Source of the DNA: a bacterium c-19
Lineage (GTDB): Bacteria; Bacillota_I; Bacilli_A; Erysipelotrichales; Erysipelotrichaceae
Reading direction: 5' to 3'
NCBI GenBank assembly: GCA_009917405.1
Contig: QZED01000007.1
Coordinates: 1-52,379 of the forward strand
DNA: 52,379 bases
Position numbers and translations under genes: made by a program. Positions 39,124-46,726 of this stretch are shown in pieces (the stretch's first letter is position 1; each line of letters opens with the position of its first letter). A model generated the notes under the pieces. That model had not been told where the DNA came from. It worked only from the letters and a program-made list of their open reading frames with translations, and did not search any database.

Positions 39124-42100
39124 TTACTGTTCTTGTTTATTCTTATAAGAAATAAGCAGAATTGCTCCGATGGATGCCGATACAAGCATCACATATAGCA
39201 TTACTTGTGTATAATCACCGGTATTAGCCCCACCGATGCTGTTTACCGGATTATAATATCCTTTTACCGATGTGTCATTACTGTCACTTGGATCTGTCGG
39301 AGAATCTTTGACAGGTTCCTGATCGCTTGGATCTTGATATTTAATATTCATTGTATAGTATGGAATATCTTTCTCTGTCTTGATGTCCGGCTTCCATTCA
39401 GAAATATCCATAATTTTATCATCCGGTTTTCCATCTCCATCATGATCTATATTTATATCCGCAATACCGTCACCGTCCCCGTCAATATCTATATCAGGTA
39501 TGCCGTCGCCGTTTGTGTCAATATTGATGTCCGGAATACCATCACCATCAATATCTACGTTGATACTCGGATAGCGACCGTCAATGATTCCCATATTTAA
39601 TAATGGTTCTAAATCCTTCATTGTATCGTAGCTGAACTTATTATAATTATAATCTTTATTCGGCTTCCATATTTCAGGTATCTTGCCGATATTCAAGAAT
39701 GGCTTTTCCCCGTCAAATGAGATGTTGAAATCAGCCTTCATATCACCATTTGTATCAATGTTAATATCAGGAATGCCATCGCCGTCTGTATCCACATTGA
39801 TCACTGCTTTTACACTTGTGCCGGTACAGTATTCCTCTAAGATGCCGTTATCAGTATCTTGCTTCACACACTTGGTTGGTTTCCAATCAGACTTCTTTAG
39901 GATAACTAGGTTTAAATCAGGTTTACTATCGTTGTCTGTGTCGATATTCAAGTCAGGTTTCCCATCTCCATCGCTGTCATTGTTTAAGTCAGGGATACCG
40001 TCTCCATCTCTGTCACCGTTAATTATGATCCATTTGCTTTCATTATTTGGATCTTTCCATTTGATGTTTAGATCAGGACATCCATCACCATCCGGATCAT
40101 TGAAATCAGGCTTACCATCTTTATCCACATCAACATCGATCTTCTTTAACTCTAATTCATGACAGCTTTCTTTGTTTGTATTTTCTGCGTTGTCTGTCGG
40201 TATCACACACACTTTATATTTTCCGACTGTTTCGCTGATCGTAATACTTGCCTTCTCTTTTGTCACTGTCAGTGTTCCGTTTTTAATTTCTTCTTCAGTT
40301 CCATCTGTTATTTTGAAAACTTTATAACTGATTTCCTTCGTACCGCTAACCTTTAAGTCATCTTTCGCATCACTTGTCGTAATCTCAAATGCAGTTCCCG
40401 GTTTAAAGAAGATGCCACCGCTTAGCTTGTTAATAATATCTTGTAGCTTATTGTTTGTATCTTTTGCTTTAATACCTTTTACCTTTGGCGGTGTTTTATC
40501 AATCTTGATGATCTCTTTCTTTTCCTTTGTGATCGCTCCACTGTCCTTTTTCATCCAGAAGCTTTGATTTGTTTCTCCCTCTTTGGTCACTGTGACTTGA
40601 TTCGGCTTCCATGTGCTTTGATCTAATGACAGGTTCTTATATTCATTATGATCACTGATGATGTTTACATCTTGATTTGTCCATTTGCCTTCATATGCGG
40701 TGTTGTTACCATCATTGATTTCTAAATGATACCAGTCATCTTCAATCACATCTTCCTTGATTTTTAGTGTTCCCTCTTTGAATGTAAAACTGTAATTTGG
40801 ATAAGTCTTGTTTAATGTCGTTGCATTTCCCTTAATCGGATAATTCCCTGCACTACTGTTTGTCTTTGCCGTTGTGCTTAGTACGATGTCCTTTTCCTGT
40901 ATCACATCTTGTGTTCCATTCCATGTGACTAATTGACTTCTGAAATCTTGATAAGTTAAGGTTGGATTTTGTTCTCCTTTATACTTCTCTTTATCATCGA
41001 TCTTGATTTCGATCGGTTTAGGTAATACCTGTACCGTTATTGTTTTACTTAGCGGTACTTCTCCATCTGCCGTTCTTGTCACCTTGATTTGAATATTCGT
41101 ACTTCCGCTGTACTTCAATGCATCAAATTCCGCCTTGTTTCCTGTTACGGTAGGATTGGAGATATAGGTCGTATTGTCTACCGCAAAGGTATACTGTACA
41201 TTCGTACTGCTTGAATCATCCTGTAGGCTTCGGATTGTGAAATGATCGCCGTAAATGATTTTTCCCGGTCGATTAATCGCCAATGTATTCTCATTCGGTC
41301 CCATGATGTGCATCATACCGTCTGTTTCTGCCTTATTGTAGTTTCGATTCCCCGGCTTCTCTACATGCAGCGGGATATCTAACCCATTATTTCCACTGTA
41401 GCTGTATTCGATATTCACTCCGTCATTCGTCCATGCGATCGATGTACTTATGCTTGAATCAATCGTGATATAGTAATCGGTATCATTCACCGTTACTCCG
41501 CCGGCATTACTTGAGATATCCTGTTCATTGATGACAGGCGTTACTGTTCCGTTTCCGCTTGTCGCATAGGTGATTCCCGCAAATGATATCGTTTGATTGG
41601 CTTTGGTGATATCGATCGGTACCTCGATTGTCTTATCCGCATAGTTTCCTGTAGGATCATGACTTGTTGCTTCTACAATGACCTTGCCTATTTGACTTGG
41701 TGATATACTCGCATTGAGTATTGTGACTAACCCTGTCGGACTTACTGATATGACATCGGTAGGACTTCCTGCCTTTAAACGGTATGTTACTGTACTGCCT
41801 GTCGGATTCCCTGCCGTATATAATTGAATCGTTTTATTTGGTGCGTATACTTCACTAATCGCATTATACTTGTTGCTTGTTTTAGGAAGCTCATTTCCTG
41901 CGCTGTCTGTATAGATGAAATTCTGTGTTCCCGCAGTTACCGTAAAGGTCAGCTCAGCACTTGCGTTTGCCTGTCCTGCAGCTCCGTTTTTCTCTGCGAC
42001 AATGATGACCGTTCCTACTCCGTGGATCGTAACTGCACCGCTTGTTGGATTTACCTCAATCACATTCGTTGAACCGTCTTGAATACTGTATTTCACAGGA

Positions 42101-44451
42101 TTGGTATTACTGCTTCCTTTGACTGTCGCGTAGACCGTTACTCCCGTATCTGTTGCCTTCACACTCTTTGTCGTTATGATCGTATTTGAAGTACTGTTCT
42201 CATAAAACTTCAGATTCTCTGCCGCAGCTACTCCTACATTGATTGTCACAGGGATTTCCTTTGTGCTCCAGTTATCACTTACCGTTACTGTGATATGATA
42301 GCTGTTCACTCCAAGATTCGCTGTTGTCTTGATGACACCTGTATTTGGATCAACACTAAAGAAGCTCGCATTGCCTACTCCCGGTTTTAAGCCATAATGA
42401 TAAGTCGTTGTGCTTCCGCCTATCGTATCGGGTGTACCGAGTGTTCCGTAAATCGTACCGATGATTCCCCCTGTTCTGACATTGGAATCAGAAGCTGTAA
42501 AGGTAGGAATCGTTGTATCTGATGAATTGGCATGCGGTGTTACACTTCCGTCTACCTCTCGATAGATCACGATTTCTTTTTCAACAAAGGCAGAATTATA
42601 ATTATCATTTCCCGTTGTCGGATCATCATCAACCGTTGCCCTTATCTTTACCTTACCGAACGCATTGCTTCCTGTATAAGTAATCGCACCTGTATCAGGA
42701 TTAATTGAAATCAGTGATACATCACCACCCGTAATACTATAGGTTATCTTAGTACCACTACTAGGAGTCGCAGTCGCTGTTTCATTCCAAGCTGTAGCGG
42801 CAGCTGCGATTGATTTCTTGGTGGTACTCGGATTATTGAACGCTACTGTCGGATTACTCTTTGCGACCACAATATGAATAGTATTACTATTTACACCACC
42901 TACCGGATCTCCATTATCATCAATTGCATTGAGTTTGAAATAATAATCACCGGCATCCAAACCATTTGGATCATTAACAACGACATTTCCATTAGATATT
43001 GAAAACAGTTGATAATCATTCGCATGCCCATTTACACTTGTATCACTTACAACACTCACAGTAATTGGGCTTACACCGTCTTTGGTTGTGTAAGTAGCTA
43101 TAGTATCTCCGTTATTTACGTTTTTGTCATATTCCAATCCTGTTTGAGATGTTATTGACAAGCTTAACGGGCTTACAATTTCCAACGGCAGTAAGCTACT
43201 GATATAACCGGAATCCGCAGGAGCAGTGCTATTCTCATTATAGGCTTCATTAACCACTGCAATCTTATATTTCCCAATCGGCAGCCCTTGTAAATCAAGC
43301 TCATACAAGGCATTTCCTTTTGCATCCTCCAACGGCATATAATAGAGGAATTCACCGGTATCACTAAAAATCATAACCGATACTGTATAGATTCCGCCTT
43401 TCCCGTCATTTCCGGGATTAGCACTCAAGGAAAGATTTACCTTGGCATCTTTTGCAGCCTTAGTAATACTATTTCCCTTTTTATTCTGAATTTGATGAAA
43501 CTGGGCTGTTAAAGAGCCATTATAAAGACGAACTTTCATTTCATCATAAGTACTTGTCGCTGTGTATAAAGAGGTATAAGTGCCCAAAGAAGGCTCTGTA
43601 ATATCAGCAAAACCACTCCTATTCCCCATAGAGATCGCAAATACCACACTGCTGACATCTAATGTAATCGATGGTCGAATCAGTAAATCAGTAGTTATAG
43701 GATACCATGTGAAGCCACCTGAGGCCGCAGCGATCACTCCTTCACAATTTCCTGATACGCCATAGCCGCTTTGTGTATCACCGGAATGATAATCACTGTG
43801 AAATTTAAAATCATTCTCATGAGCAAGGGAACCTTTTTCCTCAAAACCGACAAGATACGCAATCTTGCCATTATAGGAATCTCGTATATTGACACCCAAA
43901 CGCACTTCTGTCGAGTGCGCTGTGTTTGTCAACAAACCATTTCTGGCAATTGTCAGATTACGATAAGTAACTAACGGATTAGCGACAAGCGATTTATTTA
44001 ATATATCCAGCACACCTGCCATGCGTGTTGCATTAACCGGGGTAATCCAGTCCGGATATGTCCAGCTTGCTAAAGAATGATCTTTGCCGACATCTGTTGT
44101 ACTTAAGGAATACCAACCTGAAATCGGTGTATCTTGGACAAAATTATAAGTACCGCTGCCGGCTGTTGTTTTATAATAATCATAACCACTCATATAATTC
44201 ACTAACTGCCACCCTAACGGAGTGTTATCTTTTGGATTATCAACACCGATATAAATCTTATCACCTTTTTGCAGTCCTATATTAGGTCCGCTGATACCGG
44301 TAGGAGCCATATTGATTCTTCCCGTCACATTACCGCCTGCATTATATGTAACAGATGCAGCTTTCATTTCTGCATTATAAAATGTATAACCAACTGATAA
44401 TACACTGAATAACATAAATATTACTGCACACATACGTTTTAACATATACAT
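39124..44451 (-). CDS. Giant surface protein with cadherin-like, MBG and DxDGDG repeats
   Basis: 1775 residues, with AAAGGAAAG before ATG 44451 (ATG 44445 is an alternative). Residues 1-32 are a signal peptide. Beta-rich, cadherin/Ig-like repeats follow to about 1130, with recurring phrases such as DPNTGVIKTT and DPDTGAITYT. An MBG domain lies at about 1135-1235 (KPIEIKIDDKEKYKGEQNPTL). From about 1435 to 1680 comes an acidic stretch of DxDGDGxPDxNID units, like thrombospondin type 3 calcium sites, interrupted by WKP-containing segments. The C-terminus has YNPVNSIGGANTGD, a hydrophobic helix and a short basic tail, resembling a non-LPxTG sorting signal. Likely an adhesin or surface fibre. Confidence 0.88.
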   Translation of the reverse strand: MYMLKRMCAVIFMLFSVLSVGYTFYNAEMKAASVTYNAGGNVTGRINMAPTGISGPNIGLQKGDKIYIGVDNPKDNTPLGWQLVNYMSGYDYYKTTAGSGTYNFVQDTPISGWYSLSTTDVGKDHSLASWTYPDWITPVNATRMAGVLDILNKSLVANPLVTYRNLTIARNGLLTNTAHSTEVRLGVNIRDSYNGKIAYLVGFEEKGSLAHENDFKFHSDYHSGDTQSGYGVSGNCEGVIAAASGGFTWYPITTDLLIRPSITLDVSSVVFAISMGNRSGFADITEPSLGTYTSLYTATSTYDEMKVRLYNGSLTAQFHQIQNKKGNSITKAAKDAKVNLSLSANPGNDGKGGIYTVSVMIFSDTGEFLYYMPLEDAKGNALYELDLQGLPIGKYKIAVVNEAYNENSTAPADSGYISSLLPLEIVSPLSLSITSQTGLEYDKNVNNGDTIATYTTKDGVSPITVSVVSDTSVNGHANDYQLFSISNGNVVVNDPNGLDAGDYYFKLNAIDDNGDPVGGVNSNTIHIVVAKSNPTVAFNNPSTTKKSIAAAATAWNETATATPSSGTKITYSITGGDVSLISINPDTGAITYTGSNAFGKVKIRATVDDDPTTGNDNYNSAFVEKEIVIYREVDGSVTPHANSSDTTIPTFTASDSNVRTGGIIGTIYGTLGTPDTIGGSTTTYHYGLKPGVGNASFFSVDPNTGVIKTTANLGVNSYHITVTVSDNWSTKEIPVTINVGVAAAENLKFYENSTSNTIITTKSVKATDTGVTVYATVKGSSNTNPVKYSIQDGSTNVIEVNPTSGAVTIHGVGTVIIVAEKNGAAGQANASAELTFTVTAGTQNFIYTDSAGNELPKTSNKYNAISEVYAPNKTIQLYTAGNPTGSTVTYRLKAGSPTDVISVSPTGLVTILNASISPSQIGKVIVEATSHDPTGNYADKTIEVPIDITKANQTISFAGITYATSGNGTVTPVINEQDISSNAGGVTVNDTDYYITIDSSISTSIAWTNDGVNIEYSYSGNNGLDIPLHVEKPGNRNYNKAETDGMMHIMGPNENTLAINRPGKIIYGDHFTIRSLQDDSSSTNVQYTFAVDNTTYISNPTVTGNKAEFDALKYSGSTNIQIKVTRTADGEVPLSKTITVQVLPKPIEIKIDDKEKYKGEQNPTLTYQDFRSQLVTWNGTQDVIQEKDIVLSTTAKTNSSAGNYPIKGNATTLNKTYPNYSFTFKEGTLKIKEDVIEDDWYHLEINDGNNTAYEGKWTNQDVNIISDHNEYKNLSLDQSTWKPNQVTVTKEGETNQSFWMKKDSGAITKEKKEIIKIDKTPPKVKGIKAKDTNNKLQDIINKLSGGIFFKPGTAFEITTSDAKDDLKVSGTKEISYKVFKITDGTEEEIKNGTLTVTKEKASITISETVGKYKVCVIPTDNAENTNKESCHELELKKIDVDVDKDGKPDFNDPDGDGCPDLNIKWKDPNNESKWIIINGDRDGDGIPDLNNDSDGDGKPDLNIDTDNDSKPDLNLVILKKSDWKPTKCVKQDTDNGILEEYCTGTSVKAVINVDTDGDGIPDINIDTNGDMKADFNISFDGEKPFLNIGKIPEIWKPNKDYNYNKFSYDTMKDLEPLLNMGIIDGRYPSINVDIDGDGIPDINIDTNGDGIPDIDIDGDGDGIADINIDHDGDGKPDDKIMDISEWKPDIKTEKDIPYYTMNIKYQDPSDQEPVKDSPTDPSDSNDTSVKGYYNPVNSIGGANTGDYTQVMLYVMLVSASIGAILLISYKNKQEQ

Positions 44452-44489
44452 CTTTCCTTTCCGCAGTATCTAAAAATGTAGACCTATAT

Positions 44490-44544
44490 AAACAGGTGTC
44501 TCTAAATAAAAATGCCTGTTTTTCTATTCATAAACATATATTTC
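44490..44544 (-). promoter_or_regulatory. 5'-leader hairpin and shared upstream element of the surface-protein gene
   Basis: AAACAGG (44490-44496) and CCTGTTT (44515-44521) form a 7-bp stem 38 bases before the start codon. The overlapping stretch 44503-44544 resembles 2943-2982, upstream of the other surface-protein gene. It may be a regulatory leader or a common promoter. Between 44545 and 44588 nothing else was recognised. Confidence 0.4.
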
Positions 44545-44588: not shown

Positions 44589-45030
44589 TTAATGAAATGT
44601 ATTTTTCTGATATTTGTATAATGCGTAACTTATGAAGCCGATACTTAACATCGTGAAGCTTAAATAAAGCATTGAATCCGAATCATCGCCCGTATTCGCT
44701 CCGCCCATGCTGGTGACAGGATTATACTGACCTTTCACTGATGGTTTTACATTGTTCGGTTGATCGTTACTCGTTTCGCTTATTTTTTTAATTTCATCTC
44801 TGATGTGTAATAAGGCGCATATCCTTCTACTTTAAGCCTTAGTTTCCATTTTCGTAATATCCTAAGTATATTTATCGGGAATATCATCACCGTCTGTATC
44901 ACCTTAATGTCCGATTTACCATCACCTCACGCAACAAAAAGAAAAGAGAATACTTGCCGATAGACCTGCTATAACAGCAGCTCTATAAGCATGCTCCGAG
45001 AAGTTTCTCTTTCGTTCAGAAAAATTTCAT
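44589..45030 (-). pseudogene. Decayed relative of the giant surface protein
   Basis: The last 63 codons, ending at TAA 44589, still read as a surface-protein C-terminus: PSVKGQYNPVTSMGGANTGD, then a hydrophobic helix and a basic end. The intact neighbour has the same SVKG-YNPV-S-GGANTGD. Upstream, pieces of DGDGKSDIKV and DGDDIPDK repeats can be read (about 44860-44935), but only by changing frame, and stops interrupt them. Further up, ATG 45028 gives MKFF then stop, while another frame reads RNFSEHAYRAAVIAGLSASI, a possible remnant signal peptide. The centre of the gene is gone. This fills most of the gap between 44452 and 45100. Confidence 0.75.
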
Positions 45031-45100: not shown

Positions 45101-46150
45101 TTAATAAATCACCTTTTCAAAGGCTGATGCCCAGCCGTTATCCTTTAAGCGTGCATAATAAACGCCGTTTTCAGCTTTTAAAGCTTCATAAAGCGGTAAA
45201 GCCTCTGTTTGCTGTTCTAGGTTCAGTAATTCCATATCCTGAATACAGATATTCATTTTCAATGTATAATACGCATCCTTGCCTGAATGAATACTGATTC
45301 CCCGATAATAAAGCTGCGGGAATGCATCGCTTTCATTCTCAATGACTTGCGCATCTGAATCATGATATAAATTACTCAGTAATACACCCGCAGGAATTAA
45401 CACAGTCGTACCACACGCAATCATTGCCAGCTTCAAAGGTAATTTCCATGTTCCTATTTTATCAAATAAACTCTGTAGCTTTGTACTTTGCGGCTTCACA
45501 ATTAATTCCATTGTCTGATCGGATAGAATAGATGCCATTACTCCGGTTGATAAGCTTTCATGGAAATTCAGTTTAATTCCTTCTTTACGCTCATATGCCT
45601 CAATTTTCTTGCGCAACGTAGCTCTTCCGACAGATAAACGGCTTTTTACCGTTCCTTCCGGTATTTCTAACAGTTCGGCAATCTCAGCTGTCGTTAACTG
45701 CTGCATATAATACAAAATAATTGCATACTTTTGATCATAAGGCAATTCTTTAATAAAATGATGCATCAGGGTACGATCACTTGCGTATTTCAACTGTGCT
45801 TCCGGTAAAAACTGTTCATTCTGTTCAAGAAACTCATTTAAGATATGATCTTGTTCAATATCGGTTTGATGATACTTGTTTTTTCGAAACAGCTTTTTAC
45901 ATTTAGAATCCACAATGCGATACAGCCATAAACGAAAATATGCGAAATTTTTTAAATTCTTTAAAGATCGCTTCACTTCTATAAAAGTATCCTGTAGTAC
46001 ATCCTGTGCATCGGCATCATTTTTGCACATTTTATAAGCAACATAATAAACCAGCTTATGATAGCGATAATATAATTCCGCAAAGGCATCATCATCTGAC
46101 ATCGCCTTCACCAATAATTCCTGTTCACTTAATTTTCTCTCGTTTTCCAT
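45101..46150 (-). CDS. Sigma-70-family (ECF-like) factor with a transmembrane C-terminal extension
   Basis: 349 residues. Sigma region 2 covers about residues 20-90 (FAELYYRYHKLVYYVAY, DAQDVLQDTFIEVKRSL) and region 4 about 135-185 (LPYDQKYAIILYYMQQL, EIPEGTVKSRLSVGRATLRKKI). Ordinary ECF factors end near residue 190. Here a linker leads to one hydrophobic helix at 238-261 and about 88 further residues that should lie outside the membrane. So the sigma factor is probably tethered and may carry its own sensor or anti-sigma-like part. It is transcribed from its own promoter, directly upstream of the surface-protein locus, which is a plausible target. Confidence 0.87.
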   Translation of the reverse strand: MENERKLSEQELLVKAMSDDDAFAELYYRYHKLVYYVAYKMCKNDADAQDVLQDTFIEVKRSLKNLKNFAYFRLWLYRIVDSKCKKLFRKNKYHQTDIEQDHILNEFLEQNEQFLPEAQLKYASDRTLMHHFIKELPYDQKYAIILYYMQQLTTAEIAELLEIPEGTVKSRLSVGRATLRKKIEAYERKEGIKLNFHESLSTGVMASILSDQTMELIVKPQSTKLQSLFDKIGTWKLPLKLAMIACGTTVLIPAGVLLSNLYHDSDAQVIENESDAFPQLYYRGISIHSGKDAYYTLKMNICIQDMELLNLEQQTEALPLYEALKAENGVYYARLKDNGWASAFEKVIY

Positions 46151-46264: not shown

Positions 46265-46284
46265 AACTTCGCATCAGCGAAGTT
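46265..46284 (-). terminator. Terminator of the infC-rpmI-rplT-marR operon
   Basis: AACTTCGC-TGAT-GCGAAGTT followed by six or more T residues on the minus strand; the stem overlaps the marR stop codon. Confidence 0.85.
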
Positions 46285-46726
46285 AATTTCCGTAAGATTC
46301 CTTAAAAAACTGTGAAACCTTGTATAATGATTTTAACAATTCTTGTTCTTCTTCAATATCCAAATCATTAACAATTTTATCAATCATCTGTTTATGAAAA
46401 TCATCATGTACCTGTAAAACCATATTAGCTTTTTCAGTGTTTTTTAAACGCACAATACGGCGATCTGATTCGTCCTTTATACGTTCCACATAACCCTTTT
46501 TTTCAAGTTTACTGACAGATACCGTCAATGTTCCCTGCGTAATCATCAAATACTTTGCCACTGCCGACATCATATTGGATTCACTCTTTTCGATTGCTTC
46601 CAAAATATGTACTTCGGTCATGGAAAGAGATACATGCTGATTTTGCAGATTAGCTTCTTCGATTGCTAAAATATTGTTAAACAGATTTACTAAAAGCTCA
46701 TTCAATGTACGACGTGTATCGTTCAT
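46283..46726 (-). CDS. MarR-family transcriptional regulator
   Basis: 147 residues, with TTAGGAGC before ATG 46726. The winged helix-turn-helix is clear: LSMTEVHILEAIEKSE, SAVAKYLMITQGTLTVSVSKLEKKGYVERIKDESDRRIVRLKNTE with the wing D-x-R-R. Helical dimerisation parts flank it. It begins 13 bases after the rplT stop, so it belongs to the ribosomal-protein operon, an unusual companion. Some relatives of this type (FabT-like) control fatty-acid genes; the target here is unknown. Confidence 0.88.
   Translation of the reverse strand: MNDTRRTLNELLVNLFNNILAIEEANLQNQHVSLSMTEVHILEAIEKSESNMMSAVAKYLMITQGTLTVSVSKLEKKGYVERIKDESDRRIVRLKNTEKANMVLQVHDDFHKQMIDKIVNDLDIEEEQELLKSLYKVSQFFKESYGN

Follow-up and report, generated by a model that had tools for sequence, protein, structure and literature searches.

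Parallel ECF sigma factors with a predicted membrane helix and external tail, paired with giant surface-protein genes in a genus of the Erysipelotrichaceae

Bacterium c-19, a member of the Erysipelotrichaceae, likely encodes a set of one-polypeptide membrane sigma switches that act in parallel, each addressing its own adjacent surface-protein operon; we put the probability of this reading at about 0.6. The gene from which the analysis started lies in a stretch of 52,379 nucleotides (the window; contig QZED01000007.1), and a preliminary description based on that DNA alone could not see that about two dozen such modules exist in parallel. The set looks like a collection of separate one-protein sensors choosing which surface proteins are displayed.

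A sigma factor with a predicted transmembrane helix and extracytoplasmic tail

The sigma gene of the window and the surface genes downstream of it comprise the following features, all on the minus strand.

45101..46150 (-): sigma fusion ORF of 349 aa, an ECF sigma factor continued by a membrane helix and a predicted external tail
45878..46078 (-): sigma region 2, residues 25-91 (PF04542, E 2e-13)
45617..45769 (-): sigma region 4, residues 128-178 (PF08281, E 2e-13)
45443..45595 (-): cytoplasmic linker, residues 186-236 (~50 residues), a possible inhibitory segment by inference
45371..45442 (-): transmembrane helix, about residues 237-260, predicted from hydropathy and charge bias
45104..45370 (-): predicted extracytoplasmic tail, residues 261-349 (89 residues), with a predicted beta-hairpin and four helices
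44989..45022 (-): candidate sigma-specific ECF-type promoter, TTTCTGAACGAAAG-N10-CGGAGCATGC, 78 nt past the sigma stop
44595..44926 (-): C-terminal part of the operon's first surface gene, surviving as a decayed remnant, from tblastn and blastn against locus L042 of genome G005
44467..44522 (-): surface-gene leader with the hairpin AACAGGC..CCTGTT and the palindrome-like GGTCTACATTTTTAGATA
39124..44451 (-): intact gene for a surface protein of 1775 aa

Both PF04542 and PF08281 score above cut-off in the window protein, which identifies regions 2 and 4 of an ECF (group 4) sigma-70 factor, and both domains were matched in all 24 members from the host genome (G000) at E<=0.1. As the preliminary description had claimed, these regions are complete early, by about residue 180, and are followed by a hydrophobic helix (about residues 237-260) and then a long tail of 89 residues. 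Its further suggestion that the helix spans the membrane withstood an attempt at refutation. The helix has a 19-residue mean hydropathy near 2 and is present in 146 of 148 homologues of 300-420 aa, a distribution that rules out a chance or mis-annotated fusion. In 135 of the same 148 proteins positive charge is greater on the sigma side of the helix, with 9 ties, and the median tail length is 91 residues. This charge bias across the helix predicts that sigma faces the cytoplasm and the tail the outside. Neither linker nor tail gave a convincing Pfam match, including to any recognisable anti-sigma domain, and a zinc-finger motif (HxxxCxxC or CxxC) after residue 180 was found in 0 of 150 homologues. 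In some paralogues tblastn flagged in-frame stops; ORF calls at the same loci read through, and the flags appear to be terminal stops, with no recoding. Between the sigma gene and a ribosomal L20-like gene, the window (46283-46726) encodes a MarR protein resembling FabT, which matches NF050133 at 136 bits, below the 200-bit cut-off.

Such genes are numerous in this genus. The host genome (2.24 Mb) carries 24 tailed-sigma genes and all seven genomes of the genus carry 13-27 each (E<=1e-15); 151 copies were collected from the seven. At the same threshold 31 of 34 genomes from other genera gave no match, and the remaining three gave one match each, covering the sigma part of the query alone. The matches in G012 and G023 are sigma-only, while that in G034 (L285) combines an ECF sigma factor and a membrane helix with an external domain that is large and unrelated. 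The G023 sigma (L016), of about 200 aa, adjoins a separate membrane protein; with the fused form of G034 this suggests that the order may contain both fused and two-gene forms. Scanning contigs with a generic sigma pattern returned mostly ordinary sigma factors, L166 alone being useful.

The tail itself is found in few genomes. Of 315 genomes of the order, 8 matched its profile, namely the seven of the genus and G148 from another genus, and 392 sampled genomes of the phylum added just two weak matches (G487, G629), neither of them a sigma factor. Modelled alone the tail gave a structure of moderate confidence (pLDDT 78, pTM 0.67); the full-length model, built from a two-sequence alignment, was poor (pLDDT 51). 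The best matches were at E 0.066 among PDB sequences, E 3.9 in Foldseek and Z 3.3 in VIA-align, although a missing match is not proof of a new fold. Pooled orthologue pairs place the tail under purifying selection, with a dN/dS of 0.14-0.17. That constraint bears on the idea that the tether simply brings the transcription of very large secreted proteins to the membrane (transertion), with the bound sigma at work and no sensing involved. The targets are nearly all giant secreted proteins and no known sensor or anti-sigma domain was found, both of which would suit transertion, but a mere anchor would not need a tail so conserved and predicted to fold, and the known relative IutY is freed by proteolysis (PMC5411451). 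Transertion without sensing is accordingly very improbable in our estimation.

Surface-protein partners and the promoter between

The sigma genes are nearly always followed by a surface-protein gene. An ORF of 90 aa or more lies on the same strand within 1.5 kb downstream in 143 of the 151 copies, and in the other eight the sequence ends within 0-799 bp downstream. This next ORF has a signal-like N-terminus in 137 of 143 cases and is not surface-like in four (L074, L078, L158, L164). Complete partners are at least 1000 aa long in 64 of 76 cases, most being about 1700-1850 aa. In the well assembled G002 the sigma gene comes first and the promoter next, followed by up to three surface genes (at least one), which are spaced about 110-260 bp from each other. 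Beyond the genus, G148 has a sole such sigma gene with, about 115 bp on, a surface frame of 6858 codons bearing a signal peptide and a C-terminal membrane helix (L261/L262), which supports the pairing of sigma and surface gene; no GAAC box was found in the gap between them.

A survey of 203 ORFs around 73 sigma genes in three genomes found the surface family near 33 of 35 sigma orthogroups and the next-commonest family near five. A family with the motif YDEYCKKILCNK, which we take to resemble Rpn/PD-(D/E)XK transposase-like proteins, occurs near sigma genes of five orthogroups (L040, L088, L123 and others). The preliminary description had named a separate anti-sigma gene beside orthologues as evidence against its proposal of a one-protein sigma/anti-sigma pair, and none, RsgI-type included, recurs among these 203 neighbours of orthologues and paralogues. 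That proposal is therefore supported in part, by the signs of a membrane span and by the lack of a recurring separate anti-sigma gene; the inhibitory role it would give to the same chain stays presumptive.

The window locus has the giant and the decayed surface genes expected downstream from the preliminary description (39124-44451 and 44595-44926). The intact 1775-aa protein consists of a signal peptide, a variable head, a cadherin-like/MBG stalk, DGDG repeats, and GGANTGD with a C-terminal membrane helix. Pieces of the remnant are 87% and 54% identical to the 323-aa partner of the G005 orthologue; compared with G005, about 180 bp past the sigma stop the sequence jumps to the end part of a surface gene, with damage. 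The window promoter (44989-45022) is intact, and the gene at 39124-44451 starts 571 bp from its -35 block. Between the window tail and that of G005 there are 4 synonymous and 11 nonsynonymous differences, small counts that only hint, from sequence, at relaxed constraint. Given the apparently weak constraint on its tail and its decayed first surface gene, the window copy may be losing function.

The gaps between sigma and surface genes contain a likely promoter. Ribosome-binding sites and leader repeats came first in a de novo motif search of the gaps, which also yielded TTTTTGAACYTTTT. The pattern GAAC-N19-TC occurs in 52 of 142 gaps against 0-16 at other spacings, and GAAC-N18-GTC in 26; judged from the sequences, this spacing peak is ECF promoter architecture. 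A two-box position weight matrix (PWM) was trained on 46 gaps (G001, G003, G004) and tested on 96 gaps of four other species, which belong to the same genus and are not fully independent. At a score of at least 12 it found sites in 59 of the 96 held-out gaps, compared with 4 of 277 regions preceding other genes and 9 of 288 random sequences, so the search for promoter motifs 5' of surface genes that the preliminary description had recommended came out strongly positive. Over full gaps, training loci included, the matrix found a site in 110 of 143, compared with 13 on the opposite strand. The G002 sigma of orthogroup 17 (L127) has no local promoter, and orthogroups 19 and 20 have no clear one. 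Autoregulation by the same promoter was considered and is not supported: scores of at least 12 occurred upstream of 5 of 100 sigma genes versus 4 of the 277 controls, and the sigma genes thus seem not to drive themselves.

Other elements were seen in the leaders of the surface genes. A motif, TAGGCTTTTAGTATTAT, is common to several loci (for example L022, L031 and L039), a perfect or near-perfect palindrome, TGTCTACATTTGTAGACA, lies 28-42 nt 5' of the start codon in 15 of 143 gaps, and the hairpin AACAGGC..ACACCTGTT occurs in the window leader and in those of other surface genes. A role for palindrome or hairpin as a recombination or invertible-promoter site was set aside, as the palindrome occurs in just those 15 gaps.

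Orthogroup-specific boxes and replaceable surface heads

The promoter boxes differ from one sigma orthogroup to the next. Comparison of 107 sites with canonical spacing and a score of at least 10, omitting pairs whose sigma factors exceed 88% identity, gave identities for same-orthogroup pairs (n=162) of 84% at -35, 54% in the spacer and 88% at -10. For different orthogroups the values were 55%, 29% and 43%, and 1000 within-genome shuffles gave at most 62%, 35% and 48%. The -10 boxes are thus kept within orthogroups across species and differ between orthogroups, as in TGTGTCTAAA, TGGTTCACTA, TGTGTCAGAG, TGCATCCAGT and TGGTACCAAT; that of the window's group is GGAGCATGC. In exact genome-wide searches GAAC-N15-TGTGTCTAAA and GAAC-N15-TGGTTCACTA each gave one site per genome, at the matching sigma locus, in 6 of 7 genomes. 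The window promoter core, GAACGAAAGAGAANNTTCTNGGAGCATGC, was likewise single in 5 of 7 genomes, lying at the matching locus and nowhere else, and reversed control patterns gave no sites. We infer that each sigma reads its neighbouring promoter.

Mantel tests over 26 orthogroups, with sites of orthogroups 2, 7, 9 and 12 added by looser rules, related sigma region 2 to -10 similarity with r about 0; region 4 against -35 (r 0.24, p 0.015) was the sole nominally significant result among 12 tests. As this is essentially negative, private recognition is not proven, and a few residues, missed by overall identity, may decide promoter recognition. The failure of -10 similarity to track region 2 similarity would also fit a common ECF promoter with much cross-talk, where the sigma factors form one redundant regulon and the -10 boxes merely tune strength. 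GAAC-YTTTT-like -35 boxes are common to most promoters, and one two-box pattern, TGCGAAC-N18-CTCTATA, has 10 sites in G002 and 9 in G006, both as cross-talk would predict. However, conservation of -10 boxes within orthogroups with differences between them, and the occurrence of the three tested promoter words once per genome, argue against extensive cross-talk, and a single redundant regulon is unlikely.

The boxes of TGCGAAC-N18-CTCTATA resemble those of orthogroup 17. All seven of its sites in the G002 DNA examined (L263, L264, L267, L269, L279) precede surface genes without a sigma gene of their own. One sigma may therefore act on many distant surface genes in G002 as a distributed regulon.

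The surface proteins turn over faster than the sigma factors. G000 and G005 share 22 reciprocal sigma pairs of 89-99% identity, and in just 5 of these 22 orthologous loci is the partner head (first 300 residues) at least 90% identical; between G002 and G006 it is so in just 4 of 22. From these comparisons, the sigma factor with its promoter is stable and the surface head mostly replaced between sister species. Within genomes 0.32-0.45 of head comparisons (residues 1-300) align, at 30-41% identity, as against 0.90-0.95 of stalks (residues 601-1500), at 59-66%, and stalk blocks of the window surface protein reach 95% identity with paralogues. There are 51 copies of the stalk in G002, 41 in G006 and 12 in G000, the last probably an undercount because contigs break inside surface genes. 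Many of the sigma-bearing contigs of G000 end within the downstream surface gene, and short-read assemblies can thus be expected to undercount the family.

The head is probably not what the tail reads, since it is exchanged where sigma factor and tail persist. This bears on the possibility that the tail senses the surface protein of its own operon, or secretion stress, in a feedback loop instead of an environmental signal. Sigma and surface gene are nearly always paired, and the tail is predicted to lie outside, where the surface protein would pass, as feedback would require; yet with the head replaced over an unchanged tail, at most a conserved stalk or anchor could be read, and we consider such a loop improbable.

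Proposed mechanism and relation to known systems

The reading we prefer, of parallel one-protein switches each addressing its own operon, would work as follows. At rest the tether and linker would keep sigma from RNA polymerase, while the tail would read an external signal. That signal would trigger a cut within the membrane or close to it, for which the resident site-2 protease is the likeliest enzyme by analogy with IutY; an M50 site-2 protease is encoded in all 3 genomes searched and likewise in all 14 control genomes. The freed sigma would then transcribe from its own promoter just 3' of its own gene, thereby expressing the neighbouring operon, which encodes between one and three giant surface proteins. 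Within a single genome about two dozen such modules, with different -35 and -10 boxes, would run in parallel; each would be a fixed address at which evolution exchanges the surface-gene cargo. Anatomy, signs of topology, pairing, promoter, orthologue-specific boxes and cargo turnover in this scheme come from sequence, and to them we have added, as suppositions, the inhibition, the signal, the proteolysis and the reading by each sigma of its own promoter.

A wider reading is more tentative, and we rate it somewhat below even odds. Under it the display would be sigma-addressed across the genus, with about 25 fixed addresses, each made of a membrane-tethered sigma factor and a private promoter and answering a cue of its own, across which recombination would swap giant surface proteins whose interchangeable heads sit on a shared stalk. 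The cell would compose its coat through many orthogonal one-protein switches, one address having gone global in G002 and G006 (10 and 9 sites).

Fused membrane sigma factors are already known, in ECF36, 48, 52, 53 and 243 according to a review (PMC8999054). The closest likeness is to IutY of Pseudomonas putida (ECF243), where sigma, helix and external domain also form one protein; PMC5411451 and PMC8999054 describe its release by Prc and RseP. By sequence, the window protein likewise has a sigma factor, one membrane helix and an external C-terminal domain. Unlike IutY, it has no FecR-like domain found by Pfam in its linker or tail and no siderophore receptor; its host is Gram-positive, its tail is of its own kind, and it exists in two dozen copies, each beside a surface-protein gene. 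The actinobacterial ECF52 (SCO4117), ECF48 and ECF53 share with it a fused C-terminal membrane-spanning extension, with proteolytic activation proposed (PMC8999054, PMC5826349). These carry a zinc-finger anti-sigma domain, and ECF52 also a carbohydrate-binding domain, in contrast to the 0 of 150 homologues with a zinc-finger motif here. The SigI/RsgI pairs of Clostridium thermocellum resemble the present set as several parallel sigma systems for surface machinery, with external sensors and paralogue-specific promoters (PMC4711584, PMC10575876). They differ in that SigI falls outside the ECF factors, RsgI is a protein of its own, the systems number 8-9 and the targets belong to the cellulosome.

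In open-licence literature we found no array of two dozen fusions, each with its own promoter and giant surface operon, which is not proof of novelty, and nothing relevant on ECF sigma factors with surface proteins in Erysipelotrichia, gut bacteria or Firmicutes. In Bacteroides, ECF systems of the FecI/FecR-SusCD kind occur by the dozen in a genome, with surface genes next to each; these differ in having a separate anti-sigma factor and receptor and in serving Gram-negative outer-membrane uptake. The type of fusion is already known, as in IutY and ECF52, and the array of sigma-promoter-surface modules is the new part.

If the proposed reading is true, we know of no larger set of one-protein sigma switches working in parallel, with promoters that appear private, in a single small genome. 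The approximately 26 natural sigma-promoter pairs would then be available for the study of orthogonality and would offer a direct route to how ECF factors tell -10 boxes apart, and the external domain, matching neither Pfam nor PDB sequences, is likewise on offer for study. If true, surface variation in gut bacteria would be tied to the choice of sigma factor.
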